Positions 35,128-61,370 of a stretch of 64,000 nucleotides of DNA are shown here, one piece after another. The DNA is from an uncultured Clostridia bacterium. GTDB taxonomy: Bacteria; Bacillota; Clostridia; Christensenellales; Borkfalkiaceae. The notes beneath the pieces were generated by a model. It was not told the DNA's origin. It made no database searches and saw nothing but the letters and a program-made list of their open reading frames with translations. Position numbers and translations under genes: made by a program. How positions within the stretch are numbered: position 1 is the stretch's first letter; each line of letters opens with the position of its first letter. Where the stretch lies: positions 172,701 through 236,700 of the forward strand of contig CALVXG010000002.1 of the NCBI GenBank assembly GCA_944368925.1. Direction: 5' to 3'.

Positions 35128-35157
35128 CACTTTACCCGCCAGAACTTGATTAAATTC

Positions 35158-37689: not shown

Positions 37690-37735
37690 AACATATTTCT
37701 CCTGCCATATCAGTGAATAATTTTTGAAATTTTAT

Positions 37736-40880: not shown

Positions 40881-40905
40881 GATATGATCCTTTAAAGGTA
40901 TAGGT

Positions 40906-41421
40906 TTATAACGTTAATAATTCCGCAAATTCTGGTATTTGATTTAAAATTTCCGGATTATTCTTATATATATTACGCGCAAAGACACCGGCTAACTGAT
41001 CATTCAAATCAAACAAATATCCTTGTCTTCCGTGCCCATTTTTATCAAATGGTTGATATTTATATTTTGAGCAACAGTCAATAATTTCTTTTGTATAATC
41101 CATTGTCATCAGCGGATTTTTAATTGTGAATGATTTACAGTTTACTTGATATCCTTCAGTGATTCCATCTCTGATCTTGCTTTTAAAACAATCGGAAGAG
41201 GCAATACCAACAGCAAAGGTGCACTGAGCTATGCCATGAAATATGATATCACCTTTATTCACTTTTTTAAGCATTGCCCAATGAGATGGGGTATTTCCGC
41301 CCGCATCTTTGCACGGAGCCCAAAGATAACCTTTGCTAATTTCTTTTAAATACTCCTTTCCTTGGAAAACCCAAAATACTTTAAGACCTTTATGCTTTGA
41401 TTCAAGTTTTACATTTACCAT
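40906..41421 (-). CDS. EVE/PUA-like domain protein
   Basis: A 171-residue single-domain protein with the EVE-like pattern GYLWAPCKDAGGNTPSHW, MLKKVNKGDIIFHG and FAVGIASSDC, and later GRQGYLFDLN. EVE and related PUA-like domains bind modified bases and are often fused to restriction nucleases such as McrB-type proteins. Here it stands alone 26 bases downstream of no other gene on its strand and just before the helicase gene, so it may supply recognition for the helicase and HNH products. No catalytic residues are seen. Confidence 0.65.
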   Translation of the reverse strand: MVNVKLESKHKGLKVFWVFQGKEYLKEISKGYLWAPCKDAGGNTPSHWAMLKKVNKGDIIFHGIAQCTFAVGIASSDCFKSKIRDGITEGYQVNCKSFTIKNPLMTMDYTKEIIDCCSKYKYQPFDKNGHGRQGYLFDLNDQLAGVFARNIYKNNPEILNQIPEFAELLTL

Positions 41422-41474
41422 AAAATACTCCGTTCTCTAATGTTGCTTTAATAGCTATAATTTTTCTGTTGGTT

Positions 41475-42206: not shown

Positions 42207-42236
42207 GATTAAATTCTCTCTATCTAAAAAGCTACA

Positions 42237-42689
42237 TTAAATCAATGACAATACGTCGGCAGCGTTGGTGTCCGGCTTGACTTTGGGCATAATTTTGAGG
42301 ATTTTTCCCTGTTCGTCGATGAGGAAAGTTGTGCGGACAACGCCCATGCTTGTCTTTCCGTACAGTTTTTTCTCCTGCCATACGCCGTACGCCTGGATCG
42401 CCTGCAATTCGGGATCGGACAGCAGGACAAAGGGAAGACTATACTTTTCTGCAAATTTTACGTGTGAAGAAACGCTGTCTTTGCTAATTCCGACAACGAC
42501 GGCGTTTTTCTTCTCAAATTCGCCGTAAGCTGCCGCAAAAGCACACGCTTGACGCGTACATCCGGGCGTACTGTCTTTGGGATAGAAGTAGAGAACTACT
42601 TTTTTGCCCAAAAAATCGGAAAGGGAAACTAATTTTCCGTCTTTATCTGCAAGGGTAAATTCAGGTGCTTGCATTCCTTCTTGTAACAT
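42237..42689 (-). CDS. bcp: Thiol peroxidase of the Bcp/PrxQ family
   Basis: A 150-residue peroxiredoxin of normal size: LYFYPKDSTPGCTRQACAF holds the peroxidatic Cys in PGCT and the resolving Cys five residues later, typical of Bcp. Later segments are GISKDSVSSHVKFAEKY and RTTFLIDEQGKI. It reduces hydroperoxides using thioredoxin. It is a metabolic gene in a defence neighbourhood, separated from its neighbours by repeats, so it may be a passenger. Confidence 0.93.
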   Translation of the reverse strand: MLQEGMQAPEFTLADKDGKLVSLSDFLGKKVVLYFYPKDSTPGCTRQACAFAAAYGEFEKKNAVVVGISKDSVSSHVKFAEKYSLPFVLLSDPELQAIQAYGVWQEKKLYGKTSMGVVRTTFLIDEQGKILKIMPKVKPDTNAADVLSLI

Positions 42690-44337: not shown

Positions 44338-44366
44338 TTGAAATATCGTGTAATGCGTGCTATAAT
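44338..44366 (+). promoter_or_regulatory. Promoter of the BREX-4-like operon
   Basis: TTGAAA (44338-44343), 17-base spacer, TATAAT (44361-44366) with TGC just before it (extended -10). It lies 34 bases before the regulator gene and is the only clear promoter before 59.8 kb. Confidence 0.8.
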
Positions 44367-44400: not shown

Positions 44401-44604
44401 ATGACAATCAGTTACAAGAAATTATGGAAACTCTTTATAGATGAAAATTTGAAGGACAGGGATCTATTTCGCATGTCAAGTATAAGCAATTATACATTGA
44501 AGAAGCTGAATTATGATAAAAGCGTAACGACGGATAATTTAGTGAGGATATGTGCTGCATTAAAATGCGGTATTGAAAATATTATGGATATGGTTGAAGA
44601 CTAA
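44401..44604 (+). CDS. XRE/Cro-type regulator, first gene of the BREX-4-like operon
   Basis: A 67-residue helix-turn-helix protein of the short YozG/HTH_26 type: ISYKKLWKLFIDENLKDRDL, MSSISNYTLKKLNYDKSV, then DNLVRICAALKCGIENIMDM. It is little more than the DNA-binding domain. Its stop overlaps the next start (TAATG), so it is made together with the defence proteins and may repress the promoter at 44338-44366. Small XRE-type or WYL-type regulators are common at the head of defence operons. Confidence 0.85.
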   Translation: MTISYKKLWKLFIDENLKDRDLFRMSSISNYTLKKLNYDKSVTTDNLVRICAALKCGIENIMDMVED

Positions 44605-47600
44605 TGGAAGGTTTAATACTGTTCATATTTTTGATCGTTGTGCTGTTAGTGATTTTGTTGATCGTTTATTTAGAAAAAAGGAAAAAAGCGACGCAAACGC
44701 TTTTAATTGAGAAGCCAGTAAAAGAGAAAACAATAGCATGGAAGACAAGTCAAGAATATGCGCTTGTTGGTTTCCTCGTGTCCTCGCTAAATCAATTTCA
44801 AAAGATCCAAAATCAAATTCAGTATTGCCAGAATTTGATAAAGTGGTATAACAATCGAAAAGAAGCATTGAAATTTTTAAGAAAAAATGAAGAGATTTCT
44901 AAAGAAGCGGGAGAAATTGAACAAATATATAGAGAGATTGTAAAATTAAATAAGGATAAAAATGCAATTATTGCCGAATTTGTAAATTTAAACCCAATTG
45001 GTAAGGATAAAAGTATAGCTTCATTAAACGACTTTAACTATTTTAAAACAACATCGGATGATGCTCTTTCTGAACTATTGCAAAATCTAAATTCTTGTAG
45101 ATTAGATAATGGAATAAAAATCTTTTTTTGTGCAAACTTTTATCTAATGTCAAAAAATTATGGTGTCAAAATTTGCCCTTATTTTGATTTAGGCGTTACA
45201 GAAACAACTGAATTACAAGCAACGGGATATAGCGTTAAACCGGCAATTGATGATGAAATTGTTGGCTTAAAATACTTGCATGAAAGGAAAAGGGGAGGAC
45301 CCGACAAGCGGTATACTTATAATCCGGCCACGTATATTGTTCGTAGAGGGATAGTTGTTTTAACGTTTAGGGGAGACGGTGAAGCGACGATTAAATTTTC
45401 TAATACTACAAAATCTCATTTCTATGCTTCAAAATTCTTGTATTTAGTACGTTTTGCCGGATTTCCCAGAGAAAAAGAGATGTATGCTAAAATGATTTCT
45501 ATGAATAAAGTTTATTCAGCTACGGACATTTTTAAAATGATGGATGAGGATGAATACACTAAAAGAGAAGAGCAGAAAAAATTACAGGTGGAAGGGACTA
45601 TTCGTCAACAAAAAGTAAGCCAGGAAAAACCGGAGGAACAACATGGGTTCAAGGCTGAAGAAGAAAAAAGGTTAGAGGAGGAACGACGCAATTTAATATT
45701 TGCAAAAGAAATTAAGACGATGAAAACGCAACCGGTTTGGAATCAATATGAAGCAGCTTTGTTGCTCAAAGGATACTTAGAAATTAGTAAAGGGGCGGAT
45801 AAGCAAAAGACAATTGAAAGGCTATCAAAGATGCTTCGACGAATGGCTGTTCATTCAGGTATTATAATAGATGAAATTTATCGTAATATAAATGGGATTA
45901 CATTACAGATGGATCGAATGAGAATGGCAATGACCGGGCAAATTGATGAAAGCAGAAAGCCGGCGAAAGTTTTTCTTGACGTTGTTTCATTGTATAAGTC
46001 TGACAAGGAAGGTTTTGATAAAATTTTACTTGAAGCGAAAGAGAAGTGTGGGGAAGGTATTAAGCAAGATGAGGACCTTGTAGTTAAAGTAGAACTTCCA
46101 CCTCTAACTGATGTAATTGATAAAGGAGTAAAACGTAAACCGCAGAAAGACTATCAGCAAAAAGAAGATAATATCAAAGTTTATGATTTTCAACAAAATA
46201 CTTTTTTAGGCTTTACAAAACCACTGTTAGTGATGTATTTTGGAGAAATAAATTCAAAAGTACAAAGTTGGAGTGACGTATATTGCTCGGTCCTTTTATC
46301 TTTGTGGCAAGATTATCCTTCGATCATAAAGGGATTAGCAGAGGATCCGGAATTTACTACTATTTCTTATGATAAACAAAGTTTAAGACATGCGATGGAA
46401 ATTACATCTTCATTGTTTGCAGAAGGAAATAGAAGCGCGACGGATTTAGGACAAGCTATTAGACAATTACTTGATATTTGCAATGTTGACTATGAAAACG
46501 TTGTGATCAGATATGTGTTGGTTGATCAAAATAAGACTGTAAATGATGCAAACGAAAATTTTCAATCTAATGATGAACAGGGTGAGACGATCTCCGATCT
46601 GGATAATGACCTTTTAATAGAGGGGGTGTCTGATTTAGATAATGAAATCTATGATGTGATTAAAACAAAATATTTAAACGGATTTCTTATAGGCGCTATC
46701 AATTTCAAAAAAATACGTCGCTATTATGAGGAAATTTACGCAAAACAATTAACGATTGAGAATAATGCAATCGAAAAATCGCTAAGAAAGACTTGTATAT
46801 TCTTAGATGGGAAATACTATGCAATAGACGCGTTAATGCAAGATGAGTTAAAGAATAAAGTTGCAGAATATATTCAAAATTGCATTAATAGTAATGGATA
46901 TGTTTACTATAAAATGATTATGGACAATTTCGGATACGAATTGACTGAACATATTCCGGACTCTGAGTTGTTAAAGAAATATTTAAGCAAGGTTTTTCGT
47001 CAATATGTGTATTTTGAAGAATACATGGCAAGATCACGTGATGTCAAAATTGACGTTAACAAGGAAGTAGAACAAGTGCTACTTGATTCAGTATATCCCA
47101 TATCGTTTGAAAAAATATGTGCCTTGTTGCCGCACCTAACGGAAGATGCGATTAGGAAAACTATTATATTTGATGACAAGATAATAGTAACCAATAATAA
47201 TGATCGTTTTCATATCGATTCTATGGGGTTGACAGACGATGACGTAAACGCGATTAAAAAAATTATCGATACAGTTCTTCAGGAGCATAATTGTATGTTT
47301 GGGAATGAGCTTCTTAATGGAATAAAAAGCAAGCTTCCCAATCTGTATGAAAGCATAAAAGATTTTGGCGACAGAGGAATCCGGGGCGCAGTGGCATACA
47401 AATTAAAGGGCATTTTTAAGTTTAACTCAAATATTATTTGCAATATCGGAGTGGATATTGATAATGCTGAAGTCTTTAGATCTTTTGCAAAAACTGAACG
47501 ATATTTCAGCCTGGCAGCCTTGATCGCCTTGAAAGATCAAATCGGAATAGGAAATATTTATTTTGATAATGTAAATGAAGTGGCTTCAAGAATAAATGCC

Positions 47601-48023
47601 AATGATTTTGTTCCAAATGAAGCTTTAGTGTTTAATGTAAATACCATAGATGAATTATTGGAGCAGATTATTACAGGCAATATGGCTTCTATAAAAGAGG
47701 CAAGTAATTTTGCTGTTTATCCAAGCACTTGTTATCCTTGGACGGAGTATTTACTTGAAAGCTACGTTGCAAAATATAGTAAAAAATTTAAATTGTTGCA
47801 CGTTTGTTATGCAGAAAGTAAATGTTCAGGGGCAATTGTAAAAAGATCGTCGCAAATTGATTCAATGGATGCAGTTATAATTGAATATCTTATTTTACAT
47901 GAAGAAATTCAATCAGGGAATGACGCATTAAGTGGATTAGTCGAAGATGGATACATTGCAAGAAAGCGCTATAAAAATATTGAAGACTTGTTAATTGTTG
48001 CAAAGGCAAAAAGGAGAAAATAA
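44604..48023 (+). CDS. Membrane-anchored multi-domain protein of the BREX-4-like operon (1139 aa)
   Basis: Starts with one strong membrane helix (about residues 4-23, GLILFIFLIVVLLVILLIVY) and KRKK, placing the rest in the cytoplasm. A helical charged region follows, then a domain around residues 135-310 (CANFYLMSKNYGVKICPYFD), a coiled Glu/Lys/Arg linker (about 325-370), and a helical module (WNQYEAALLLKGYLEIS, LRRMAVHSGIIIDEIYRNIN) that I have seen in several uncharacterised defence-related proteins. A second module (about 530-650) has LRHAMEITSSLF and LDICNVDYENVVIRYV. The last 450 residues look like repeated winged-helix domains (SFEKICALLPHLTEDAI). No enzyme motif was found. It is three bases upstream of brxP, so it is a likely dedicated component. 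Confidence 0.7.
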   Translation: MEGLILFIFLIVVLLVILLIVYLEKRKKATQTLLIEKPVKEKTIAWKTSQEYALVGFLVSSLNQFQKIQNQIQYCQNLIKWYNNRKEALKFLRKNEEISKEAGEIEQIYREIVKLNKDKNAIIAEFVNLNPIGKDKSIASLNDFNYFKTTSDDALSELLQNLNSCRLDNGIKIFFCANFYLMSKNYGVKICPYFDLGVTETTELQATGYSVKPAIDDEIVGLKYLHERKRGGPDKRYTYNPATYIVRRGIVVLTFRGDGEATIKFSNTTKSHFYASKFLYLVRFAGFPREKEMYAKMISMNKVYSATDIFKMMDEDEYTKREEQKKLQVEGTIRQQKVSQEKPEEQHGFKAEEEKRLEEERRNLIFAKEIKTMKTQPVWNQYEAALLLKGYLEISKGADKQKTIERLSKMLRRMAVHSGIIIDEIYRNINGITLQMDRMRMAMTGQIDESRKPAKVFLDVVSLYKSDKEGFDKILLEAKEKCGEGIKQDEDLVVKVELPPLTDVIDKGVKRKPQKDYQQKEDNIKVYDFQQNTFLGFTKPLLVMYFGEINSKVQSWSDVYCSVLLSLWQDYPSIIKGLAEDPEFTTISYDKQSLRHAMEITSSLFAEGNRSATDLGQAIRQLLDICNVDYENVVIRYVLVDQNKTVNDANENFQSNDEQGETISDLDNDLLIEGVSDLDNEIYDVIKTKYLNGFLIGAINFKKIRRYYEEIYAKQLTIENNAIEKSLRKTCIFLDGKYYAIDALMQDELKNKVAEYIQNCINSNGYVYYKMIMDNFGYELTEHIPDSELLKKYLSKVFRQYVYFEEYMARSRDVKIDVNKEVEQVLLDSVYPISFEKICALLPHLTEDAIRKTIIFDDKIIVTNNNDRFHIDSMGLTDDDVNAIKKIIDTVLQEHNCMFGNELLNGIKSKLPNLYESIKDFGDRGIRGAVAYKLKGIFKFNSNIICNIGVDIDNAEVFRSFAKTERYFSLAALIALKDQIGIGNIYFDNVNEVASRINANDFVPNEALVFNVNTIDELLEQIITGNMASIKEASNFAVYPSTCYPWTEYLLESYVAKYSKKFKLLHVCYAESKCSGAIVKRSSQIDSMDAVIIEYLILHEEIQSGNDALSGLVEDGYIARKRYKNIEDLLIVAKAKRRK

Positions 48024-48026
48024 TCA

Positions 48027-50351
48027 ATGTATTCATATGAGTGGGATTCTGCTACAGGCGGATATATCCTGAATTCGACACCTCTTGCATTTAGTAAAGA
48101 ACCCAGACCTGTTTATTATCAAGAACTTGATATTTTAGGGTTTAATGCTAAATGGAAATATCCGAAATCAGATGCTTATCCAATCATGTGGGCGGAAGCC
48201 AATAATTATTATTACAGAGGTAAGTTAGTCGCAAAAACAAAAGGTGGATCGATTTACCAGGCTCCCGAGTTAATTTTTCTTGAAAATCCTGAACCGGACG
48301 GAACTGAATTAAGATTTGTCGATATACCGGCGATGATCGAAAAAAACAGAAGTATATTGGAAAGTTTGACTCAGGAAACAATAAAAAAAATTTATAATAC
48401 ATATTTGGCATATCAAAAGAAAGTAGATGTTTTTTATGTCGCTTTTTCAGGCGGTAAAGACAGTATAGTAACGCTTGATTTAGTGCAAAGAACTTTACCC
48501 CATAATGAGTTTAAAGTGTTATTTGGGGATACAAAGATGGAGTTCCCAGATACTTATAAAACTGTTGAAGTTATAAAAGAAAAATGCGAACATGACGGTA
48601 TAGATTTTATAACAGCTTCATCGCATTTTGATCCATCAGAAAGTTGGCGACTGTTTGGCCCACCGTCTACAGTAACAAGATGGTGTTGCAGTGTTCATAA
48701 AACTTCTCCGCAAATTATCCTTTTAAGAAAAATCCTTAATAAATCTAATTTCACAGGTATGGCATTTATTGGAGTCAGGGCAAGCGAAAGCTTAGCAAGA
48801 AGTGAATATGATTATATTAGTTTAGGAGAAAAACATAAAGGACAGTATAGTTGTAATCCGATTATAGAGTGGAATACAGCAGAATTGTATTTATATATCT
48901 ATACAAATAATCTATATCTCAATGCAGCATACAAAAAGGGAAATCGACGCGCTGGATGTTTAATCTGTCCAAGAGCAGCAGAACGTAACGAGTATATGAG
49001 TAATGCCTGTTATCCGGAGGAAGTAAAAAAGTATTCGTCTATTATCAAATCTTTATATAGTAAAAGTTTTCCTACAGAAGAACGACTTGAACAATTTGTA
49101 AGTTCAGGAGGATGGAAAGCAAGAAAAAACGGTAGAGATTTGGATGTTCAAATGAACTATACTGAATTATCTACAGCAAAAGGGATTACATTACGTGTTG
49201 AAAAACCAAAAACTGACTGGAAAGAATGGATTAAGACTATTGGCATTTTAGAAAGTGATACGTCTCCGTATACCATATTGTTTAGAGGAAATCGGTATTC
49301 CTTTGAACTGGAGGAGAAAGATGAAACTATACAGGTTTTATTTTCACAAGCGATCTGCAAACAAAATCCTCTTTTTGTAAAGCTATTAAAAAATGTATTT
49401 AGAAAGGCAGCTTGTTGTGTGGGGTGTAGGGAATGTGAGGCCGATTGCCATAATGGATGTTTAAAAATCGAGAAAGGTAAAGTAACTGTTAGCAATGAAT
49501 GTAAACATTGTTCAGAATGTCATAAGGTCGAAAAAGGCTGTTTGGTTTATAAATCTATAGAAATGCCCAAAGGAGGGTTTAGTATGAAACAAATGAGTTT
49601 GAATTGCTATTCACATTTCGGCCCCAAAATGGAGTGGATAAATCAATACTTCATGTATAAAAACGAATTTGATGCAAATCATGATTTAGGCTCACAAATG
49701 TATAGCTTTTTTAAAAGATTTTTACGAGATGCTGAACTCATTGATCTTAACGGATTTTCTCGTTTTGCAAAGATTGTTGAAAGACTTGGTTTGGATAATG
49801 AAGCTTCTTGGGCACTTATGTTAACAAATTTGGCGTATACGCCTCAAATTGGTTGGTTTATAAAACATACTGGATTTAGTGAGCTTTATGAAAGAAATTA
49901 TATTTTATCATTGTTGGTTGATGATGGTGCAAAGGAAAGTTGGGTAAACGACATATGGAGTGCGTATTCAAGATTTATAGATTTACCGTTTTCTAATGTT
50001 GGATTAGGTATACCTCATAAAGATAATGGTAAATTTACTGGGTTTACAAGGATTTCTTGGCGTACCCCCGAACCCAAAGTCATTCTATATGCTTTATATA
50101 AATTTTCGGAGGCGTGTGATAATTATAAACAGTTCTCATTGACACGATTGTTAAATCATGAAATTGAGAGCGATGGGATTAGTCCGACACAAATATTTGG
50201 ACTTGATCGGACGACAATGGAAAGAATTCTGAATGGCTTGGCAAATAACTATCCGGATTTTATTTCAGTAGCCTTTACGCTTGATCTTGATAATATTAAT
50301 CTGAAAGAAAAAACATCTGAGGAAGTATTGTCTCTGTTTGAGGGGGATTAA
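48027..50351 (+). CDS. brxP: BrxP, PAPS-reductase family protein of BREX type 4
   Basis: A 774-residue protein after AAGGAG. Residues about 130-325 form a PP-loop ATP pyrophosphatase/PAPS reductase domain: SGGKDS (141-146), GDTKMEFPDTY, a CC pair at 220-221 in TRWCCSVHKT, and GCLICPRAAER (Cys 311 and 314). This is close to DndC/SspD, which activate the DNA phosphate for sulfur insertion. Around residues 463-505 lies a ferredoxin-like cluster of cysteines (CCVGCRECEADC, CLK..., ECKHCSECHK), enough for two iron-sulfur centres. The last 250 residues are helical and unassigned. In BREX type 4 this protein takes the place of the methyltransferase PglX, so it is the likely DNA-modifying enzyme. It is followed by brxC after three bases. 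Confidence 0.88.
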   Translation: MYSYEWDSATGGYILNSTPLAFSKEPRPVYYQELDILGFNAKWKYPKSDAYPIMWAEANNYYYRGKLVAKTKGGSIYQAPELIFLENPEPDGTELRFVDIPAMIEKNRSILESLTQETIKKIYNTYLAYQKKVDVFYVAFSGGKDSIVTLDLVQRTLPHNEFKVLFGDTKMEFPDTYKTVEVIKEKCEHDGIDFITASSHFDPSESWRLFGPPSTVTRWCCSVHKTSPQIILLRKILNKSNFTGMAFIGVRASESLARSEYDYISLGEKHKGQYSCNPIIEWNTAELYLYIYTNNLYLNAAYKKGNRRAGCLICPRAAERNEYMSNACYPEEVKKYSSIIKSLYSKSFPTEERLEQFVSSGGWKARKNGRDLDVQMNYTELSTAKGITLRVEKPKTDWKEWIKTIGILESDTSPYTILFRGNRYSFELEEKDETIQVLFSQAICKQNPLFVKLLKNVFRKAACCVGCRECEADCHNGCLKIEKGKVTVSNECKHCSECHKVEKGCLVYKSIEMPKGGFSMKQMSLNCYSHFGPKMEWINQYFMYKNEFDANHDLGSQMYSFFKRFLRDAELIDLNGFSRFAKIVERLGLDNEASWALMLTNLAYTPQIGWFIKHTGFSELYERNYILSLLVDDGAKESWVNDIWSAYSRFIDLPFSNVGLGIPHKDNGKFTGFTRISWRTPEPKVILYALYKFSEACDNYKQFSLTRLLNHEIESDGISPTQIFGLDRTTMERILNGLANNYPDFISVAFTLDLDNINLKEKTSEEVLSLFEGD

Positions 50352-50354
50352 AAA

Positions 50355-53300
50355 ATGGAAACAAACAAATATGCGCATTATTTTGATATTGACGAAGAGT
50401 TTTTCTCTGCAGTAAATCAAGAACTCATTGAGGAAGGAAAGGTCGATTGGCACAAATTTTTCCCTCATGAGACCTTTGTAAAATTATTGAAAGATACATA
50501 TAGCGTTTTAACAAGGCAGCATCTGTCGATTTGGGTAGAAGGCGCTTATGGTACTGGCAAATCTTATGCAGTACTCACCTTGAAGAAGCTTCTTGAAGCG
50601 GATGAGGATGAGACGATAGCCTATTTCCAAAGATACAATCTTGACATCGATTTGCTCAATAAGTATCTTGGATTGAAGAAAAATAAAGAGCAGAAATTGA
50701 TTACTGTACACCGTTATGGGGCACAGTCGATTCTCAATGAGCAAGATCTTGTTTTGGCGGTGCAGGAGAGCATAAAAGAGGCTCTGGAAGCGAACGGCAT
50801 TGAATATAAGGGAGAGGTTTCATTAAAAGAATCTGTCATCAAGTGGCTGTCTAATTCTTCAAATAAGAAATATTTTAACGATATTATTAATGAAGAATTT
50901 CCGACTGAATTTGGTGGAGATGACGTAGACAGAATTATAGAGAAATTGGAATCTTATTCGCAGGACAAGCTTATTGTAATTATGAATAAGATTTTTAAGG
51001 TTGCAAGAAAAAAAGGTATTCGGGCTATGACCCTTGATAAAGAGGGGATGGTTAAATGGATACAGGATATTATTAAAACTAATAACCTTCGTGCTATAGT
51101 ATTCATATGGGACGAATTCACAAAATATTTTGAAAACAATATGAGTGATTTGACCACGTTCCAAAAACTTGCAGAATTAAGTGAAACAGATCCGTTTTAT
51201 TTGGTTATTGTTACGCACAAATCGGAAGGCATTTTTGCTGAAAACGATAATGATAAAAAGTTGTTGGGTAGATTCGTTAGCCCGACTTGCTTAATAGAGT
51301 TGCCCGATACGATGGCATTCCGTTTGATGGCAGAAGCGATGGAAAAAACCAAAGATCCAGCTGCTCTTGAAGAATGGAATGAGATGGTTGTTGATTTATA
51401 TAATAGAACAGATGTATCGCGAGATTTGGTCCTAAAACAGTTACAGAAAAGAGATCCGAAATTTACCGTTAAGGATATGGGGCGTATATTACCTATGCAC
51501 CCGTATGCAGCATTGCTGTTAAAACATTTATCTGCACAATTCGCCTCTAATCAAAGAAGCATGTTTGACTTTATTAAAAATGATAAAGGCGATGACATAC
51601 ATGGATTTCAATGGTATATACGGAATTATGGGCCTGAAGATGATAATCCGTTATTAACGATCGATATGCTCTGGAACTTCTTTTATGAGAACGGGAAAGA
51701 GCAGTTGGCAAGCGATGTTAAGAATATCCTGAACCATTATAATAATTCACATCCGGATTATTTACTTGAAACACAAAGAAGAGTATTAAAAACGATTCTT
51801 TTAATGACTGCTATATCTCAATCTTTGGGTGATAGCGTGGATTTATTTATTCCTACGGATTCCAATGTAGCCAATGCCTTTGAAGGGATTGAAGATATGG
51901 AAGGTGCTCAGGCAATCAATGCTGCGCGCTCTTTAGTAGAGCAGCATATTTTGTACAGGAAAAAGCTGAAGGATAATAAAGAATGCTTTGCTCCTTTAAT
52001 GGCGGCTGTAGATACCAGTAAAAAAGTCGAGTATGAGGCTCAGATCGATCAATATACAACAACAAAATTAGTTGATGATGCTGGATTTAATAGTGAAGAC
52101 GGTATAAAAAATCCGACAGGAAAACTATTATTTACTTCGCCACTTGCAAATAGATTTAGGATTATTCTTACGGGAGTTGATTCCTTCTCACAAAGAGTAA
52201 GGATGATAAGGAATAATCCTGTTCAAGGCAAAATTTATACAATCTTGGGGTTTGCAAAAAGCGATGTAGAGTGTGCAACTCTTAGCAAGTTGGTAAAAGA
52301 ATACCTTAATAATTCAGAGTATGATGAATGCAATATCATCTACATCATATCTAAAACACCTCTCGGGGCAGATCTTTATAACCGCTATAAGGATAATTTG
52401 TCCGATAGTATGACGTTTGCGGGGAACGATAAAGGTAGTGAGGCCGAGCGGAGGAAGGAAGCATTAAAAATTTTAAACCTAGAATGGGGCTCAAGAATTG
52501 AAGCCGGGACTTTTGACATTGATTGGAAAAAGAATAACGGTGAATTTGTCCATGAGTTTATTTCCGATTTTGCAGCATTGAAATCGTATATGTTGCAAAC
52601 GGTAGATCGTGATTTTTATCCCTATGGATTTGAATGGAGATATTCCGTTGCTTCTAATATGTACAAATCATATTTACAAGCAAAACAAGGTGTTAAGAGT
52701 GCTGTTGCCGGCGTGTGCGAAGGGACATTTAGAAATCCCAATAAGATGATGCTGACAGAGCAAGTGATTGATGCGGCTTGGGGAACTTCGTTTGATGATA
52801 AATATTGGGAAACTAATCCTGGTTTGCCAATCAGTGCTCTTAAAAGTAAAATTGAAGAGAAAATTCATGCCGATTTTGAGGCGGACGGAAGAGTGTCGAT
52901 AAGCAGTATATACCAAATAGCAAAGGCAAAACCGTTTGGTTTAATGCCTTGTAATCTTACTGCCTTTATCTTAGGTTTTGTTTTAAGGGAATATACGTCA
53001 GATCAATATCGTTATACCGATGACCAAACATCGGACGTAATGAGTTCTTTACATTTACAAATAATGATTGATGAAATCATTAAAAACCAAGAAACTCCGG
53101 ACAAACGTTACAGGGATAAATATATTGTAACCATGACTCCGGAAGAAAAAGAATTCCACCGCCTTGCATCAATTGTTTTTGATATTCCGCTTGAGCTCTG
53201 TACATCTATTCAGATTACAAGGGATAGGGTACGAAATAAAATGAAAGTGCTCTCTTTCCCTATTTGGACGTTAAAATATGTAGATGATAGGGAATATGCA

Positions 53301-54617
53301 TCAACGGATAAAAAAACCATTGATGTGGTTATCGATTTGCTTTCGGAACTTGCGAACAGTGGAAATACCAGCGAAGTTAACATAGCTAATCAAATTGGGA
53401 AAATCTCACTCTCCGAGATAAATTTAATTTCAGACTTAAAAGATCTCGTGACTAAAGAAAATTGTAGAAAAGGTATGGCAAAATATTTGTCCGGGTATAA
53501 AGATGGGGAATTGATCAGTTTATCTCAAAGAGTAAAAGATGAAGGACAATATCTTAATGTTGTAGCAGGAAAATTTACAGATGCCGATGCTGCGAATTGG
53601 GTATGGAATCAGGGGACGGCAAATCAAAGAATTGATGAGGTCATCGTAGAATATAAAATCATTGACGAGACCAATAAATTATTAGGGCCTACCAATTATA
53701 ATTTGAAGACTGCTCTAGAATCTTGGAAAAATCAGTGTAATTTAATTCGAATTTCATTTGATGCGATGAAGGATAAAATTGGAGCCTTGGCACAATTTAT
53801 GTCCCTGTTGAAAGAGTTAAAAAGTATTGGCCAGCTGCTCCCTTCCAAGCAAAATGATTTTTATACCCAATTAATCCTTAATAAGGCGGAATTTAAATCT
53901 TTCTTTGATGTTCAGAAAGTGTTGTTTAAAGAAATATGTTCATTCTCTCTTGAAGGAGTGGATGAGGATGAAATAGATGATATTTTCAAGGGTATCAGTC
54001 CTCAACGAAATGCTTTCATTATGACAAAAGCAGATTATATAAAATTAGTTGATGATTTGGTATCCGATTACAAGAAAAACCAGAAGAAAGAGCAACTCAA
54101 AAAATTGTGGAAGGAAAAGACTGGTACAGATTCTCCAAGGGCTTGGTCTGAACAATATAAAACGCCGATACTTTGTATGATTCCAAAAGAAGAGCTGCAA
54201 AAGGCAAAGAAGGCTTTTAGTTGTTTTGAGAGTTTAGTGGTTTCCGATACGGATATACAAGATGCGTTGACTTATTTTGATATGGCAAAGTTTTTTAACG
54301 ACTTAACAGATCAGACATTAAGAGACGAAGCATTTAAGAAAGAAATTTTAAAAGAATACGCAACGATTTTAACAAACGTCAATGAAGTCAGGGAATATTT
54401 GTTGAAATATTTCTTGAACGTATACGATTGGTATGGTGATAATATTGTCGAAGAACGTATTAAATCGTATGCGGAACATGAATATCAAATATCGAAAAAC
54501 CATGAAGTAATTCAAATTATTCAAGGAATGGGCGATGCTGAATTAAAGCAATATATGATGGGATTGGCACAGGATAATGTTTTATTGGGGATTCAAATCT
54601 TAAAAAACAAAAGGTAA
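50355..54617 (+). CDS. brxC: BrxC/PglY-like ATPase of BREX type 4
   Basis: A 1420-residue P-loop ATPase: Walker A in VEGAYGTGKSYAV (residues 61-73, GAYGTGKS at 63-70) and an acidic Walker B region IVFIWDEFTKYF near residue 247, followed by a sensor-like FYLVIVTHKSEG. The rest is long and mostly helical with coiled regions, as in BrxC and PglY, which form large DNA-bound rings in other BREX systems. Six bases separate it from pglZ. The order brxP, brxC, pglZ, brxL is the defining BREX-4 arrangement. Confidence 0.88.
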   Translation: METNKYAHYFDIDEEFFSAVNQELIEEGKVDWHKFFPHETFVKLLKDTYSVLTRQHLSIWVEGAYGTGKSYAVLTLKKLLEADEDETIAYFQRYNLDIDLLNKYLGLKKNKEQKLITVHRYGAQSILNEQDLVLAVQESIKEALEANGIEYKGEVSLKESVIKWLSNSSNKKYFNDIINEEFPTEFGGDDVDRIIEKLESYSQDKLIVIMNKIFKVARKKGIRAMTLDKEGMVKWIQDIIKTNNLRAIVFIWDEFTKYFENNMSDLTTFQKLAELSETDPFYLVIVTHKSEGIFAENDNDKKLLGRFVSPTCLIELPDTMAFRLMAEAMEKTKDPAALEEWNEMVVDLYNRTDVSRDLVLKQLQKRDPKFTVKDMGRILPMHPYAALLLKHLSAQFASNQRSMFDFIKNDKGDDIHGFQWYIRNYGPEDDNPLLTIDMLWNFFYENGKEQLASDVKNILNHYNNSHPDYLLETQRRVLKTILLMTAISQSLGDSVDLFIPTDSNVANAFEGIEDMEGAQAINAARSLVEQHILYRKKLKDNKECFAPLMAAVDTSKKVEYEAQIDQYTTTKLVDDAGFNSEDGIKNPTGKLLFTSPLANRFRIILTGVDSFSQRVRMIRNNPVQGKIYTILGFAKSDVECATLSKLVKEYLNNSEYDECNIIYIISKTPLGADLYNRYKDNLSDSMTFAGNDKGSEAERRKEALKILNLEWGSRIEAGTFDIDWKKNNGEFVHEFISDFAALKSYMLQTVDRDFYPYGFEWRYSVASNMYKSYLQAKQGVKSAVAGVCEGTFRNPNKMMLTEQVIDAAWGTSFDDKYWETNPGLPISALKSKIEEKIHADFEADGRVSISSIYQIAKAKPFGLMPCNLTAFILGFVLREYTSDQYRYTDDQTSDVMSSLHLQIMIDEIIKNQETPDKRYRDKYIVTMTPEEKEFHRLASIVFDIPLELCTSIQITRDRVRNKMKVLSFPIWTLKYVDDREYASTDKKTIDVVIDLLSELANSGNTSEVNIANQIGKISLSEINLISDLKDLVTKENCRKGMAKYLSGYKDGELISLSQRVKDEGQYLNVVAGKFTDADAANWVWNQGTANQRIDEVIVEYKIIDETNKLLGPTNYNLKTALESWKNQCNLIRISFDAMKDKIGALAQFMSLLKELKSIGQLLPSKQNDFYTQLILNKAEFKSFFDVQKVLFKEICSFSLEGVDEDEIDDIFKGISPQRNAFIMTKADYIKLVDDLVSDYKKNQKKEQLKKLWKEKTGTDSPRAWSEQYKTPILCMIPKEELQKAKKAFSCFESLVVSDTDIQDALTYFDMAKFFNDLTDQTLRDEAFKKEILKEYATILTNVNEVREYLLKYFLNVYDWYGDNIVEERIKSYAEHEYQISKNHEVIQIIQGMGDAELKQYMMGLAQDNVLLGIQILKNKR

Positions 54618-54623
54618 GGGTTT

Positions 54624-56909
54624 ATGCAAGTAGAATCATGTATTGAAAAAATCGAAAAGCGCAATCATCGAGATAATCGAAGGATTCTTTATGTCAATAT
54701 AAATAATGACAAAGATCTAAGAGCCATTAAAGAACATTTTGAAGTTGGATATTCGTTTGTCAACGTCGCAACAAAAGGCAAAGATGAGATGCCAACGTTA
54801 GATGAAACGTTGGATCTAATTGAATCATTTCATGATGTTGTATTTATTGAGGGGATTAGCGCTTATTCGAGATTGGGTGGCCAGAAGCAATTAAAAACTA
54901 ATATCAATCTTTTGCTTAATACGCAGCTTTCTTCCAAGGCTGTGGTACTGCTTTATCAATGCGATGATATTCTACAAGAGACCATAAATAAAGATCCAAG
55001 GGTAGAAAATCAAATCCTTTTTGTGGAGGGAAACAAGCAAGAATTACCTAAAATTATCTTTGTTAAAGAAAAAGTGGCGGACATTCTTGATAGTTACGTC
55101 ATTAAAGGTCTATCTACATTGATTCGGAATATTGAAACAGAAGGGTCGGCAGAAATTTTTGTAAAGACACATTTTACAAAAGAAGATTTTCCTGATAGCT
55201 TGTACTTAATTGAAGAAATGAGCTCATTTTTTGAAATTGTTAAGAAAGAATTTCTTCCCTCTTTATCTTTAGAGGATGAAGGCTTGCTTAATGAAGAACA
55301 ATGGCGCATTTTTGCAGAAGGCTGCAAGAAGAACAATGGCATAGAAGGATATTTTCGTAAAGCAATCGGGGATATGCATTCAATTGATTTGTATGTGAAT
55401 AATTGGACAAAGCTAAGTGATGAAAAAAAAGCTTTGTTATTTATTTCAATAAAAACGAATGCAAATAAATGCAATAATAATTCTCTTAAAATTGCGATAG
55501 GAAACTGCAAAAAAATTTCAGATTTACAGATTCAAATTTACAAAAGTATTTTAGTTTATGATTATAGATTAAAAGATTTTTGGCAGAAGTATGATGAACG
55601 AAAAGTATTGCTTGCTGCTATAGGTCCTTCTGAACACTGCGCCAATGAGTTCTGTAACATAGTTGAATCATTTGGATTAAGGGGGTTATATTTTTTAACA
55701 GATTTAACGAAAGCAGAAAGGAAATTGATTATTAAACTTCTATCACTTTATGCAGATCAGGTCGATAAGAAGGAAGTTTTAGGTGTCCTTAAATTTACGT
55801 ATAAGAATCTATGGGCATATTTAAAGAACTACAATTATAAAATTAAGGAATTAGATGAATATTTTAACGAATATAAATGGTTAAAAGTATTAAACCATAT
55901 TACGCCGGAATTTTTGGAGAGAGTAGAGAAAGAAGCAAAAGAGAGAAATTTTTATCGTATTCTTTCTCCCAGAAGTGATTATCTCTCTAAACTTAAGAAA
56001 CAAGATTCTATTTTATATTTTGTTGATGCCTTAGGAGTTGAATATTTAAGTTTTATTGCTCAAAAGGCAGCCGAGTTGAATTTAATGATGGATGTTACAA
56101 TTTGTCGATCTGAAATTCCGTCAATTACATCAATGAATAAAGAGTTTCTTGATGTATTCAAACAATCGAAAGCAGATATTGTTGATAATATTAAGGGATT
56201 AGATGAGATAAAACATTCGGGGGCTTTAGAGTATAATTATTCAAAAAGTCCATACCCTACATATCTTGCGGATGAGCTTTCCATAATTTCTGATGTTTTA
56301 GAGCAAATAAATGCAAAAATAGGCAGTTCGTATGAGAGAGCATACATTATATCAGATCATGGGGCGAGTAGGCTTGCGGTATTGCAAAATCATGAAACAA
56401 AATGGGAAATGTTAAATAAAGGCGAACATTGTGGACGGTGTTGTAAAAAATCCGATAATATTATTGATGTACGTAATGAATTTATGGCTGACGATAATGG
56501 CTATTGGGTTTTAGCCAATTATGACCTGTTTAAAGGTGGAAGGCAGGGCACCGTGGAAGTACATGGGGGAGCAACTTTGGAAGAAGTGACCATTCCTATA
56601 CTTGAATTTACAAGAATGCCAGATAATATCAGCATCGAAGTTTTAACGAAGATTGTAAATACTGGTTATAAGGTAAAGCCTGTTTTGAAGTTTGTTTCAA
56701 GTTTTAAATTGCATAATGTAAAAATCATAATAGGCGAGAGAGAATACCTTGCAGATAGTCAAGATGATTTGCATTTCAGTGTTGAATTGCAAGGAGTTCG
56801 GATAGAAAAGGAATATATTTTTGAAGTGATGGCCGATAGCAATATTAGAATTGATAATCTTAAGTTTAAACTGAAATCATCAGGTATGGTTGATAATGAT
56901 ATACTGTAA
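54624..56909 (+). CDS. pglZ: PglZ, alkaline-phosphatase-superfamily protein of BREX type 4
   Basis: A 761-residue protein with a helical first half and a PglZ domain in the second half: VDALGVEYLSFIAQKA (Asp 468), CRSEIPSITSMNKEF with the nucleophile Thr or Ser region, SDHGASRLAVLQNHE (Asp-His at 578-579), and VHGGATLEEVTIPI (His 647). These residues bind metals in the alkaline phosphatase superfamily. A CGRCCKKSD segment is an additional cysteine cluster. A small beta domain ends the protein. PglZ is present in all BREX types; its substrate is not established for type 4. Confidence 0.92.
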   Translation: MQVESCIEKIEKRNHRDNRRILYVNINNDKDLRAIKEHFEVGYSFVNVATKGKDEMPTLDETLDLIESFHDVVFIEGISAYSRLGGQKQLKTNINLLLNTQLSSKAVVLLYQCDDILQETINKDPRVENQILFVEGNKQELPKIIFVKEKVADILDSYVIKGLSTLIRNIETEGSAEIFVKTHFTKEDFPDSLYLIEEMSSFFEIVKKEFLPSLSLEDEGLLNEEQWRIFAEGCKKNNGIEGYFRKAIGDMHSIDLYVNNWTKLSDEKKALLFISIKTNANKCNNNSLKIAIGNCKKISDLQIQIYKSILVYDYRLKDFWQKYDERKVLLAAIGPSEHCANEFCNIVESFGLRGLYFLTDLTKAERKLIIKLLSLYADQVDKKEVLGVLKFTYKNLWAYLKNYNYKIKELDEYFNEYKWLKVLNHITPEFLERVEKEAKERNFYRILSPRSDYLSKLKKQDSILYFVDALGVEYLSFIAQKAAELNLMMDVTICRSEIPSITSMNKEFLDVFKQSKADIVDNIKGLDEIKHSGALEYNYSKSPYPTYLADELSIISDVLEQINAKIGSSYERAYIISDHGASRLAVLQNHETKWEMLNKGEHCGRCCKKSDNIIDVRNEFMADDNGYWVLANYDLFKGGRQGTVEVHGGATLEEVTIPILEFTRMPDNISIEVLTKIVNTGYKVKPVLKFVSSFKLHNVKIIIGEREYLADSQDDLHFSVELQGVRIEKEYIFEVMADSNIRIDNLKFKLKSSGMVDNDIL

Positions 56910-56924
56910 GCGAGGGTAACTAAG

Positions 56925-58424
56925 ATGAAAGAGGGATTGATTGAAAAACTTCAAGAATGCTTTGGACAAATGATTGTCTATAAAGATTTAAGTAAAAGTA
57001 ATTTCTTTTCAGCTTTGAGCTTGCCGTCTTTTTTGCGTGATTGGTTATTAAAAAAGTTTGAAGACGAAAGCGGTAATTATGACATTGAAGAAGTCAGCTC
57101 TTTTATAAAGACATACTTGCCCAGAAAAGATGATTGGGTCAGTATTAAAAATAGGATTATTTGTGAAAATGAAAGAGTAAAATTTTTAACAAAAATAAGT
57201 GTAGATATAAGTATTAAGACACAGGAAATTACTTTTTCGTTGCCCGAGTTTGGTCTAACTAACAAAGAAACAATAATCGAAGAGCATGTGTGGCAGCAGT
57301 ATAGCTCTGAACTTGTGGCCGGTAAAGAGGTTTGGGGTATTGTTGAATTGGGTTATAGATCCCCTGATGCTTTTGATATAAGCTGGGAAGATAATCAAAC
57401 AGGGACGAAAGCAAAAGGTGGAAAACAGGGAAAGATAAAATTAACGAAATTCACCAATTTCTGCCCTTATACAATAGATACAGATTTCTATAAGGATATC
57501 CGTAATGAATTTACAACTCAAGAATGGATAGATGTTCTTCTTGGAGCAATAGATTATAATGCGGACGGATATAAAAATGATAAAGCAAAACTTGCTATGA
57601 TTTCAAGGTTGCTTCCGTTTGTCGAAAAAAGGATCAACTTGATTGAGTTAGCGCCAAAAGGTACAGGGAAATCATATCTTTTTGGACGGATTAGTAAATA
57701 TGGCAATTTGACTGCAGGTGTGATGTCGCGCGCAAAACTATTTTATGATTTGAGTAAACGGACATATGGCTTAATTTATAATAATGATTATGTTGCATTT
57801 GATGAAATACAAAAGCTTGCTTTTGCCGATCCTGATGAAATGAGCCAAACATTAAAAGGGTATATGGAACAGGGTATTGTATCTTTTGGTGGACATACTG
57901 GAACTCCCGAGGCTGGCATAATTCTACTCGGAAATATTCCCCAGGATAGCATGAATGAATTTGTACCAATGTTTGGATCATTACCGGAATTGTTTAGAGA
58001 AAGTGCATTGCTTGATAGATTCCATGGGTTTATTAAAGGGTGGGATATTCCGAGAATGAGTGAGAACATGAAAATTTGTGGCTGGGCATTAAATACCGCG
58101 TATTTTTGTGAGATCCTTCATATTTTAAGGGATGACGTTAGTTATCGCGCTGTTGTTGATGAATTGCTCGAATATGATGCAAACTCTGATACAAGAGATG
58201 TCGAAGCGGTAAAGCGTATTGCAACGGGTCTTATGAAATTATTGTTCCCCAATGTACGGACAGCAAAGGATATAGCACCTAAAGATTTTAAAGAATATTG
58301 TGTAAGACCTGCGGTAAATATGAGATCTATTATCAAATATCAGATGGGCATACTAGACAAAGAATATCGTGGTAAAGATATTCCTAAATTTTCTATTAGG
58401 GAGATAGAAAAAGAGGATGAATAA
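56925..58424 (+). CDS. brxL: BrxL, Lon-like AAA+ protein of BREX type 4
   Basis: A 499-residue protein: N-terminal DNA-binding-like part, then AAA+ core with ELAPKGTGKSYLFGRISKYG (Walker A, residues 243-250), VAFDEIQKLAF (Walker B, Asp-Glu 293-294), GTPEAGIILLGNIP and a sensor segment ESALLDRFHGFIKGW. Shorter than the BrxL of type 1 systems (about 680 residues), because the C-terminal Lon-protease-like domain appears reduced or absent. BrxL forms DNA-bound rings and is required for phage defence in other BREX systems. The 3' end overlaps the next gene by eight bases. Confidence 0.9.
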   Translation: MKEGLIEKLQECFGQMIVYKDLSKSNFFSALSLPSFLRDWLLKKFEDESGNYDIEEVSSFIKTYLPRKDDWVSIKNRIICENERVKFLTKISVDISIKTQEITFSLPEFGLTNKETIIEEHVWQQYSSELVAGKEVWGIVELGYRSPDAFDISWEDNQTGTKAKGGKQGKIKLTKFTNFCPYTIDTDFYKDIRNEFTTQEWIDVLLGAIDYNADGYKNDKAKLAMISRLLPFVEKRINLIELAPKGTGKSYLFGRISKYGNLTAGVMSRAKLFYDLSKRTYGLIYNNDYVAFDEIQKLAFADPDEMSQTLKGYMEQGIVSFGGHTGTPEAGIILLGNIPQDSMNEFVPMFGSLPELFRESALLDRFHGFIKGWDIPRMSENMKICGWALNTAYFCEILHILRDDVSYRAVVDELLEYDANSDTRDVEAVKRIATGLMKLLFPNVRTAKDIAPKDFKEYCVRPAVNMRSIIKYQMGILDKEYRGKDIPKFSIREIEKEDE

Positions 58425-58617
58425 ATACAAGTGTGTATCCTGTGGTAAAGAGAATCTTTCTAAAGACGAAATCGGTTTAACGAAAAAACTTATATCTCGG
58501 GATGCGACAACATTTTATTGCATTGATTGTTTGGCTGAATATTTGTGTGTAACCACAGATGAATTACGTGATAAAATCGAAGAGTTTAAGGAAGAAGGCT
58601 GCGCGTTGTTTAAGTGA
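58417..58617 (+). CDS. Small zinc-binding protein between brxL and the desulfurase gene (66 aa)
   Basis: A 66-residue protein with two CxxC pairs: YKCVSCGKENLSKDE and FYCIDCLAEYLCV, spaced for a zinc ribbon, and a helical acidic tail (TTDELRDKIEEFKEEGCALF). It overlaps brxL by eight bases and the desulfurase gene starts seven bases after it, so the three are translated together. It may be a zinc-stabilised adaptor, or the cysteines (including a lone Cys near the end) may accept sulfur from the desulfurase. Both are guesses; no family is recognised. Confidence 0.8.
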   Translation: MNKYKCVSCGKENLSKDEIGLTKKLISRDATTFYCIDCLAEYLCVTTDELRDKIEEFKEEGCALFK

Positions 58618-58624
58618 GGATAAC

Positions 58625-59752
58625 ATGGCAAGATTAATCTATGCCGATAATGCGGCAACAACAGAATTAGATGCAGATGCATTTAAGGCGATGACTCCAT
58701 TTTTCTTGACGGAATATGGGAATCCGTCACAACCGTATTCATTTGCTCGCATGCCTAAAAAAGCAATTAAAGAAGCAAGGGAAGTAATCGCAAAATGCAT
58801 TCATGCTGAACCAGATGAGATTTATTTTACATCAGGAGGAACTGAGAGCAATAATTGGGTATTAAATGGAACGACATACCTGAATCATACTCACGGAGCT
58901 ATTGTCACAGATAATATTGAGCACCATGCAATCTTGAGAACATGCGAAAGTATTGAGAGGAGAGGTTATCCTGTTGCCTATATGTTTGCAGACAACGATG
59001 GTATTGTGCAACGAAAGGCTCTCGAAAGTTTTTTAACAAACAAGGCAAATCTTGTGTCGGTGATGACGGCGAACAATGAAGTGGGGACAATACAACCGAT
59101 TAAAGAACTTTGTGATTTCGCGCATAGTAAAGGAGTAATGTTCCATACGGATGCGGTTCAAGCAGTAGGGCATATTCCGATTGACGTAAAAGACTTGGAC
59201 ATTGACTTTTTATCTGCATCAGCCCATAAATTCAATGGTCCTAAAGGTATTGGCTTCCTATACATAAAAAGAGGAATAAAAATTCTTCCTTATCTCTGCG
59301 GTGGCGGTCAGGAAAAAGGTTTACGCGCGGGAACAGAAAATGTTGCGGCGATTGTAGGAATGGCAACAGCTCTTCAAAAGAACGTAATCAACTTGTCGGC
59401 TAATATTGAATATGTGAGGAATTTGGAGACAGAACTTCTCAAATTGTTATCTCAAACAGGAATTGAATTTAAGAGAAATGGAGCGGGAGAGCATGTTCCT
59501 GGTAATATAAGTCTTTCCTTTAGAGGCAAAGATGGAGAAATGATTTTGCATAGACTTGATTTGATGGGTGTTATTGTTTCAACTGGGGCAGCTTGTGATT
59601 CAAAAGAGATAAAAGTATCCCATGTATTAGAAGCTATGAAAGTTCCTAAAGAGTATGCACTCGGCACGATCAGAATTTCGCTATCTAAAGATAATACATT
59701 TAAAGAGGTAGAACAAATAGTCAATATATTAAGACAAATACTAATTACTTAA
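58625..59752 (+). CDS. Cysteine desulfurase (IscS/NifS/DndA-like)
   Basis: A 375-residue PLP enzyme of normal length. ATG at 58625 gives the usual start IYADNAATTELDADAF. Further motifs: YFTSGGTESNNWVLNG, the HTDAVQAVGHIPIDV aspartate loop, SASAHKFNGPKGIG with PLP-binding Lys 202, RAGTENVAAIVG, and the active-site cysteine in STGAACDSKEIKVSHVL (Cys 324). The enzyme takes sulfur from cysteine as a persulfide. In Dnd and Ssp systems a desulfurase of this type supplies sulfur for DNA phosphorothioation and for the iron-sulfur cluster of the PAPS-reductase-like partner; here BrxP is the obvious partner. Last gene of the operon, closed by the hairpin at 59817-59847. Confidence 0.93.
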   Translation: MARLIYADNAATTELDADAFKAMTPFFLTEYGNPSQPYSFARMPKKAIKEAREVIAKCIHAEPDEIYFTSGGTESNNWVLNGTTYLNHTHGAIVTDNIEHHAILRTCESIERRGYPVAYMFADNDGIVQRKALESFLTNKANLVSVMTANNEVGTIQPIKELCDFAHSKGVMFHTDAVQAVGHIPIDVKDLDIDFLSASAHKFNGPKGIGFLYIKRGIKILPYLCGGGQEKGLRAGTENVAAIVGMATALQKNVINLSANIEYVRNLETELLKLLSQTGIEFKRNGAGEHVPGNISLSFRGKDGEMILHRLDLMGVIVSTGAACDSKEIKVSHVLEAMKVPKEYALGTIRISLSKDNTFKEVEQIVNILRQILIT

Positions 59753-60671: not shown

Positions 60672-61349
60672 TCAGTGGAAAAATCCGTAAAGACTTTTTC
60701 GTATTTCTGTGCTGTAACTTCCCGTTCCGAGGCCGAGTTCTAAAAGTTCTCCCGCATATTTTATTTCGGCGCCTTTCAGCATTTGGTAAATTTTTTCGGG
60801 CAATCGGAGCTCATCTATGGGAGAGAGAAATTTTTTAATGACGGGATCATCGATTTCTAACAGATCGACGCGGGTGCTGCAAGGCGCCCCGAATTCATCT
60901 TTACCGTTAATGCGAAAGATGTCGGAAATCTTTTTGTATTCGATTGCCGTCAAATCTTCCCGTAAAAATTTTGAAAAACAAAAGGCACCGAGAAATTTGC
61001 AGCAAGTCGGGCTGTCGTCTGTATCATACGGATCGATTTGAAAAGCTAACCGAAAAGGATGAAATCCTTCTTTGTCTCGTTTTTCCATTATCTTTTTATG
61101 AGAGGGGCTTACGCAGAATTCTTTTATGAAGGTCTCATCCGAGCTTTTAAAATTTTCCCACAAATTATCTTCCGAGCCATGTTCCATACCGTTCATATAT
61201 ACGAACCAGGCACCGACTCCTGCGGCACCGAAATCGTCAAGTTCTACCAAACTGCGCATATAACCTTTAAATTTGGTACCGATCGCTTTATTGATCATGT
61301 CGGCATAGCTGTGCCCATAGATAAAATCTCCTGCTGTCAATGTCTTCAT
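60672..61349 (-). CDS. Uncharacterised protein with alpha-CTD-like end (225 aa)
   Basis: ATG at 61349 is chosen because AGGGAG lies nine bases upstream on the minus strand. Soluble, no signal or membrane helix. The main part (AGVGAWFVYMNGMEHGSEDN, FHPFRLAFQIDPYDTDD, TCCKFLGAFCFSKFL) has no domain I recognise. The last about 45 residues (LPEKIYQMLKGAEIKYAGEL, LELGLGTGSYSTEI) resemble the helix-hairpin-helix C-terminal domain of RNA polymerase alpha. It may be a regulator or RNA-polymerase-binding protein. Confidence 0.6.
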   Translation of the reverse strand: MKTLTAGDFIYGHSYADMINKAIGTKFKGYMRSLVELDDFGAAGVGAWFVYMNGMEHGSEDNLWENFKSSDETFIKEFCVSPSHKKIMEKRDKEGFHPFRLAFQIDPYDTDDSPTCCKFLGAFCFSKFLREDLTAIEYKKISDIFRINGKDEFGAPCSTRVDLLEIDDPVIKKFLSPIDELRLPEKIYQMLKGAEIKYAGELLELGLGTGSYSTEIRKSLYGFFH

Positions 61350-61370
61350 ACTTTTTCTCCCTTTCAAGTT

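Follow-up and report, generated by a model that had tools for sequence, protein, structure and literature searches.

In type I BREX, the target site is recognized by a methyltransferase (as described in the abstract of PMC11842806), an enzyme that BREX type 4 lacks. Which component of a type 4 system could select DNA in its place is the question raised by an operon at positions 44401-59752 of a 64,000-nucleotide stretch from an uncultured Clostridia bacterium (contig CALVXG010000002.1, positions 172,701 to 236,700), referred to as the window herein. The second gene of this operon, at 44604-48023 on the + strand, encodes a 1139-aa modular protein (P0002) that we recognized as an ORF and from module profiles and a predicted structure; we coined the label BIG for its family. 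Judging from sequence, we give a somewhat better than even chance to the view that the operon is an intact BREX-4 phosphorothioation defense system of a BIG-bearing clade, in which BIG would be the DNA-recognition or scaffold arm and sulfur would flow as set out below.

Class of the operon

Eight ORFs, all on the + strand, are tightly packed at 44401-59752, neighboring ORFs overlapping by up to 8 bases or lying at most 15 bases apart, which confirms the eight close-set, co-directional genes described in an earlier, sequence-only reading of this DNA. Among them, BrxP, BrxC, a BREX-4 type PglZ, and BrxL are encoded together. BrxP (48027-50351) matches PADLOC BrxP at 3.3e-245 and combines a PP-loop PAPS-reductase domain, a ferredoxin-like Cys cluster, and a DUF4007-like end that scores 24.4 bits, below the Pfam cut-off of 27. 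The 1420-aa BrxC ATPase (50355-54617), with a Walker A motif GAYGTGKS, matches PADLOC BrxC at 1.6e-257. For the 761-aa PglZ (54624-56909), we obtained 9.3e-83 against PADLOC PglZ and 383.8 bits against NCBIfam BREX_PglZ_4 (NF033445), whose cut-off is 140. Lastly, the 499-aa BrxL ATPase (56925-58424) matches PADLOC BrxL at 6.3e-202, the Pfam families BrxL_ATPase and BrxL_N, and TIGR02688 above its cut-off. None of the eight operon proteins matched a methyltransferase family in Pfam, PADLOC, or NCBIfam, consistent with the lack of PglX in BREX type 4. The near-invariant residues of relatives are kept in BrxP (55/55, among them those of the SGGKDS loop and of the cysteine clusters), BrxC (30/30), PglZ (23/23), BrxL (52/53), and the desulfurase (23/23). 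The host genome is 93.7% complete and has a single BrxP match. The operon looks like an intact and complete BREX type 4 system, and the earlier assignment as BREX type 4-like is borne out by the matches of the four core proteins and the absence of PglX.

In the passages available from two publications, BREX-4 is termed DNA-phosphorothioation-based (PMC12839542, section 34) and brxPCZL is one of three phosphorothioate-making families (PMC11931770, which cites Yuan et al.). The operon probably tags the DNA of its own cell with sulfur. The earlier proposal of a sulfur mark thus agrees in direction with the BREX-4 literature; as the central idea of that reading it is not new, since both BREX-4 phosphorothioation and its association with a desulfurase are already in print in these passages. 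The type 4 system of PMC12839542 resembles the operon in its BrxP with a DUF4007-like end, BrxC, PglZ, and BrxL, in the lack of a methyltransferase, and in having a desulfurase and a small zinc protein. It differs in that a BIG gene before brxP is absent from the components named in the passages of section 34, and the predicted N-terminal membrane anchor of the window BIG is a further difference from BREX type 4.

Two neighboring classes were considered and rejected. SspABCD (with SspE or SspFGH) is related through the BrxC-SspC, BrxP-SspD, and DUF4007-SspB regions, and the desulfurase matches PADLOC SspA at 7.1e-126; however, PglZ and BrxL are present in the operon, and no match to SspE, SspF, SspG, or SspH was found. 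DndBCDE with PbeABCD also modifies DNA with sulfur, and the desulfurase matches PADLOC DndA at 1.3e-126, but the operon has no DndB, DndD, DndE, or Pbe genes, and the likeness comes down to a weak resemblance of BrxP to DndC (9.9e-06) and the DndA-like desulfurase. The latter scores 332.5 bits against the TIGR03235 cut-off of 480 and was rejected as a DndA equivalog; it is still NifS/IscS-like with an active-site cysteine.

BIG and its link to brxP

BIG comprises an N-terminus (residues 1-372), module A (373-484), module B (519-656), and core C (678-1137). Searches of Pfam, PADLOC, and NCBIfam with P0002 returned nothing at E 0.1, and PDB sequences yielded no hit even at E 10. The core, its C-terminal half, is predicted to be a tandem winged-helix array, a fold that by itself is no proof of DNA binding. 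The middle modules are exchanged between loci according to module profiles, which were built from the same loci they were scored on, so that their hits arise partly by construction. The N-terminus is strongly hydrophobic (Kyte-Doolittle 3.74 at residue 3), is modeled as a helix, and is predicted to anchor BIG in the membrane in this organism. As a general trait, the membrane anchor of the earlier reading did not hold up: among 66 BIG ORFs, some of which are cut at contig ends, only that of the window includes a stretch whose hydrophobicity exceeds Kyte-Doolittle 1.8. We found no convincing homologue of the N-terminal 372 residues, and this segment with its anchor is known from the window protein only. 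A phage-integrase SAM-like domain was also considered for P0002 and rejected, as Pfam gave no match; within the family, 5/47 proteins have a Phage_int_SAM_5 hit at E 0.01.

An alignment scan of the genome collection with BrxP yielded at least 592 stretches and 307 confirmed relatives. The best 80 of the 307 were used, which biases the sample of loci to window-like BrxP, and their ORFs were assigned with iterative profiles. After removal of three Ssp-type loci (L113, L115, and L116) and, from the remaining 77, of four with less than 300 bp of upstream DNA, 73 were testable. At least one BIG module lies directly before brxP in 49/73 of these BREX-4 loci, and the core module does so in 46/73; the rows include near-copies (L028 and L037 on the same contig, L053 and L081 98-100% identical), and in the tree described next, L062 and L077 were scored BIG-positive by hand because their early-starting BrxP ORFs overlap BIG. 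In a tree of the 80 BrxP proteins, with L028, L035, and BrxP ORFs below 600 aa left out, the window sits in a 48-row clade (SH-aLRT 99). A BIG-family gene adjoins brxP in 45/45 testable rows of this clade, and the other three rows have 0-2 bp of upstream DNA. Among the 45, L077 shows module B with the core undetected, and L026 is represented by a fragment of 95 aa where its contig ends. The clade spans eight phyla: Bacillota, Mycoplasmatota, Fibrobacterota, Planctomycetota, Spirochaetota, Synergistota, Thermodesulfobacteriota, and Lentisphaerota.

This linkage bears on the view that BIG is a dispensable accessory and the operon an ordinary BREX-4 with the published desulfurase. Such a view would fit the full BREX-4 cores without a BIG core in a second, mostly Bacteroidota BrxP clade, and the desulfurase being already in print in the passages of PMC12839542. 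A dispensable gene would sometimes be lost, yet all 45 testable rows of a deep, multi-phylum clade keep BIG beside brxP, which makes dispensability highly doubtful.

Several loci in the sample are of interest in their own right. L063 (8602-17923, a metagenome assembly) carries BIG-BrxP-BrxC-CxxC-desulfurase, with PglZ and BrxL absent from the locus, and is perhaps, by its gene content, a modification-only locus. In L029 (3222-7807), BrxP ends at 486 aa and is followed by a resolvase-like ORF, such that the BREX-4 locus is apparently broken by an insertion. L009 (MT835511.1), a record named 'Bacteriophage sp.', has a BREX-4 operon amid bacterial-looking genes and is probably no phage. In L065 (15455-16480), the end of pglZ and the start of brxL are inverted between the remainders of both genes; no perfect inverted repeat longer than 12 nt was found at 15200-17200, and the inversion is either an invertible switch or an assembly fault.

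We compared the divergence of the components over 97 pairs, drawn from 33 loci and sharing at least 55% BrxP identity, leaving out L028, L035, L036, and loci with a short BrxP or BIG; BIG was measured in 97 pairs and the other components apart from BrxP in 43-51. The median identities were 68.7 for BrxL, 63.3 for CxxC, 59.3 for BrxP, 59.1 for the desulfurase, 45.6 for BrxC, 39.0 for PglZ, and 31.5 for BIG, in pairs that share loci and whose selection by BrxP identity tends to raise the BrxP value. BIG was lowest in 34 of the 36 pairs with five components measured and is the fastest-diverging component. The exceptions were L049-L054, with PglZ lowest, and L037-L057, with BrxP lowest. In the latter pair, BrxP is 59% identical, BIG 63%, BrxC 79%, and BrxL 90%, which suggests from the alignments that BrxP itself was swapped between related operons.

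These rates could also mean that BIG works on the restriction side, sensing entering phage DNA or some phage product and switching on PglZ and BrxL, with fast divergence reflecting an arms race. That BIG and PglZ diverge faster than all the other components agrees with this, as do the multi-winged-helix form and the exchanged middle modules. However, throughout the 45 testable rows of the clade BIG has brxP rather than pglZ as its neighbor, and L063, a single locus from a metagenome assembly, keeps BIG with BrxP-BrxC-CxxC-desulfurase where PglZ and BrxL are gone. We regard a restriction-side sensor as possible but on the unlikely side.

A BIG-profile search independent of BrxP matched 19/391 genomes of the window's class at E 1e-8. 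The module-A range was present in six of the 19, all six BREX-4 genomes, with the module-A piece of G396 on a different contig from brxP, and G519 matched in the B range only. Among the 12 core-only genomes, one has the core in a Dnd-Pbe locus (G367, L142) and one beside a C5 methyltransferase (G261, L150; compare L036); six have the core in stand-alone proteins (809-917 aa) encoded on the chromosome, where a defense context is not obvious, and four are other or unassigned. A first BIG search had given relatives in 5/151 genomes including the window's own, and two of the others were upstream of brxP (G048 and G106). In 299 genomes of the phylum, the module-A profile matched five: the own genome, G697, G746, and two non-BREX genes. 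G697 (BREX-4, L167) encodes modules C and A as separate genes. The core thus belongs to a wider family, and the module-A-bearing form looks, from these searches, to be linked to BREX-4.

Sigma-70 region 4 or RpoA-CTD domains are part of some BIG relatives. In each of two Dnd-Pbe loci, the gene that immediately precedes pbeA encodes a BIG-core protein, with sigma-70 region 4 in L035 (9737-12652) and with RpoA-CTD-like repeats, identified by eye, in L142 (5945-9949). The L035 protein matches MzaA, a sigma-70-like protein of the MZA system, via sigma-70 region 4, whereas P0002 has no such match. BIG is neither PbeB nor PbeD, as these have published lengths of 66 and 152 aa (in passages of PMC6459918) and are far smaller.

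Such domains, together with the predicted winged-helix fold, would suit a protein that regulates the operon or transcription together with the XRE protein. The latter is a 67-aa XRE/Cro-C1 HTH regulator (44401-44604, + strand; Pfam HTH_26 at 6.6e-12) whose TAA overlaps the ATG of BIG, so that the BIG gene follows it directly. Against this, BIG is very large for such a role, the operon already has the XRE regulator, and such XRE genes occur in 10 BREX-4 loci and one Ssp-type locus of the 96 searched, with BIG far more frequent. A regulatory BIG is, in our estimate, decidedly unlikely.

BIG was not found described in the BREX-4 and phosphorothioation literature searched, which included passages of PMC12839542, PMC11931770, PMC12707154, PMC10853773, and PMC6459918 and does not extend to supplementary data or to Yuan et al. 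It is apparently undescribed in print within that coverage, and the desulfurase and the zinc protein are already described. The suggestion of undescribed genes at both ends of the core therefore stands for BIG, consistently present in one clade, and falls for the desulfurase and the CxxC protein.

Proposed role of BIG

In the scheme that we put forward, the dedicated cysteine desulfurase would take sulfur from cysteine and supply BrxP, presumably in that direction and perhaps with the CxxC protein. BrxP and the BrxC ATPase would put the sulfur into the DNA backbone at particular sites, and PglZ and BrxL would act on DNA without the mark. The winged-helix array of BIG and its exchangeable middle modules would hold or select DNA for BrxP-BrxC, in a putative partnership with putative DNA binding, and BIG would fill the role of the target-recognizing methyltransferase of type I BREX. 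In this organism, BIG may in addition be tethered to the membrane. We favor a recognition or scaffold subunit because BIG is large and modular, has predicted winged helices, is the fastest-diverging component, and lies next to brxP throughout the clade. A place on the sulfur-modification side is suggested by L063, which lacks PglZ and BrxL, and by the cores before pbeA (L035 and L142) and upstream of sspC (L113). A more specific version, which we offer tentatively and consider doubtful, is that BIG is an HsdS-like target-recognition subunit with a core common to BREX-4 and to some of the Ssp and Dnd-Pbe systems, middle modules that set the motif, and, for this lineage, a membrane-tied inspection of entering DNA.

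Several observations weigh against a DNA-recognition or scaffold arm for sulfur modification. BIG is not universally needed, as brxP is not preceded by a core in the second BrxP clade, where Bacteroidota account for 17 of the 27 rows; in two of its loci, L023 and L087, a 262-aa ORF carries only module B. Judging from the 12 core-only genomes, the core also occurs outside sulfur systems, and in the fetched stretches it lies upstream of sspC in only one of seven Ssp-type loci (L113). The L037-L057 pair indicates that BIG and BrxP can evolve apart, and the pair selection noted above limits the divergence argument. Winged helices also mediate protein contacts. Lastly, the DUF4007-like end of BrxP, which passages of PMC12839542 describe as BrxA-like and DNA-binding, could itself recognize DNA.

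Desulfurase, CxxC protein, and setting

The CxxC (zinc-ribbon) protein (58417-58617, + strand, 66 aa) contains two CxxC pairs and ends in a GCxLF tail that holds a fifth, invariant Cys. It is followed by the cysteine desulfurase (58625-59752, + strand, 375 aa from the likely start), in which the SAHK lysine and the STGAAC catalytic cysteine are present. The ORF from 58559 would give 397 aa; the ATG at 58625, after GAGGATAAC and 7 bases past the CxxC stop, is the more likely start. Elsewhere in the host genome, cysteine desulfurases are matched well twice (44% and 36% identity) and weakly once.

According to passages of PMC12839542, a desulfurase accompanies BREX-4 in 255/457 taxa as a possible sixth core component, often with a small zinc-finger protein that is likened to HTH regulators. 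In our sample, 33 of the 77 loci were removed since BrxL was lacking or less than 1.7 kb followed it, leaving 44 non-Ssp loci. Both genes were found in 26, the CxxC gene only in four, the desulfurase only in none, and neither in 14. With the desulfurase in 26/44 and the CxxC gene in 30/44, these flanking genes are not absent from most BREX-4 loci overall, the outcome that would have spoken against the earlier reading; in the second clade, they occur together in 2/14 testable loci (L089 and L091, both Lachnospiraceae). Set against the BIG core in the same 44 loci, the counts were 23 with both the core and the desulfurase, five with BIG only, three with the desulfurase only (L089, L091, and L102, where the core is one gene further upstream), and 13 with neither. 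One further stretch, L193 (1767-6291), encodes PglZ-BrxL-CxxC-desulfurase with no BrxP in the part fetched.

A role for the CxxC protein as a dedicated sulfur carrier has some appeal: its invariant C-terminal cysteine would accept a persulfide from the desulfurase and pass it on to BrxP. All five cysteines are invariant in 39/39 BREX-4 rows, the fifth lying outside both CxxC pairs in the conserved GCxLF end, and the protein is present in 26/26 testable loci with the desulfurase. The family, however, occurs in 21/391 genomes, in 15 of which the gene is away from any BREX-4 locus; the fifth cysteine is kept in 15/15 such copies that were read, and a desulfurase was seen next to none of them. Eight of these copies, in genomes of the window's class (L195, L196, L197, L198, L201, L203, L204, and L206), lie beside genes that resemble, by eye, GH27 alpha-galactosidases. 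Because the copies away from BREX-4 keep this cysteine without a desulfurase neighbor, and given the HTH-like comparison in print, we treat a sulfur carrier as a minority reading and an unlikely one.

The operon is AT-rich, with a GC content of 0.32-0.37 compared to 0.40-0.43 in the flanking 4 kb on each side. The single promoter of the sequence-only reading is weakly supported: the best of 67 promoter-like sites, TTGAAA-17-TATAAT with TG before the second hexamer (44338-44366, + strand, 11/12 matches), precedes the first gene, but the number of sites in the region is not above chance (67 observed vs 68.3 expected). At 25442-35130 of the window, a CRISPR array of ∼33 repeats spaced ∼67 bp apart is followed by minus-strand Cas1, Cas7, Csd1, and a Cas3-like helicase, a locus that we take to be type I-C-like and part of the same defense island as the BREX-4 operon. 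Between the two, at 36262-42689 on the minus strand, are genes for a GmrSD_N protein, a PLD-ResIII-DUF3427 helicase, a NERD plus zinc-ribbon protein, and a peroxiredoxin. Just beyond the operon, a minus-strand ORF of 231 aa (60672-61367) encodes an SRA-like domain (3.2e-09) and weakly matches RpoA-CTD, and its product could be a reader of modified DNA.

For practical purposes, BREX-4 falls into two groups: systems of the first have BIG and usually the CxxC protein and the desulfurase, and those of the second, mostly from Bacteroidota, usually lack these genes. Reconstructions of the BIG-bearing group from brxPCZL only would leave out the BIG, CxxC, and desulfurase genes. BIG is a concrete candidate for site choice and self/non-self discrimination in the methyltransferase-less BREX-4 systems.

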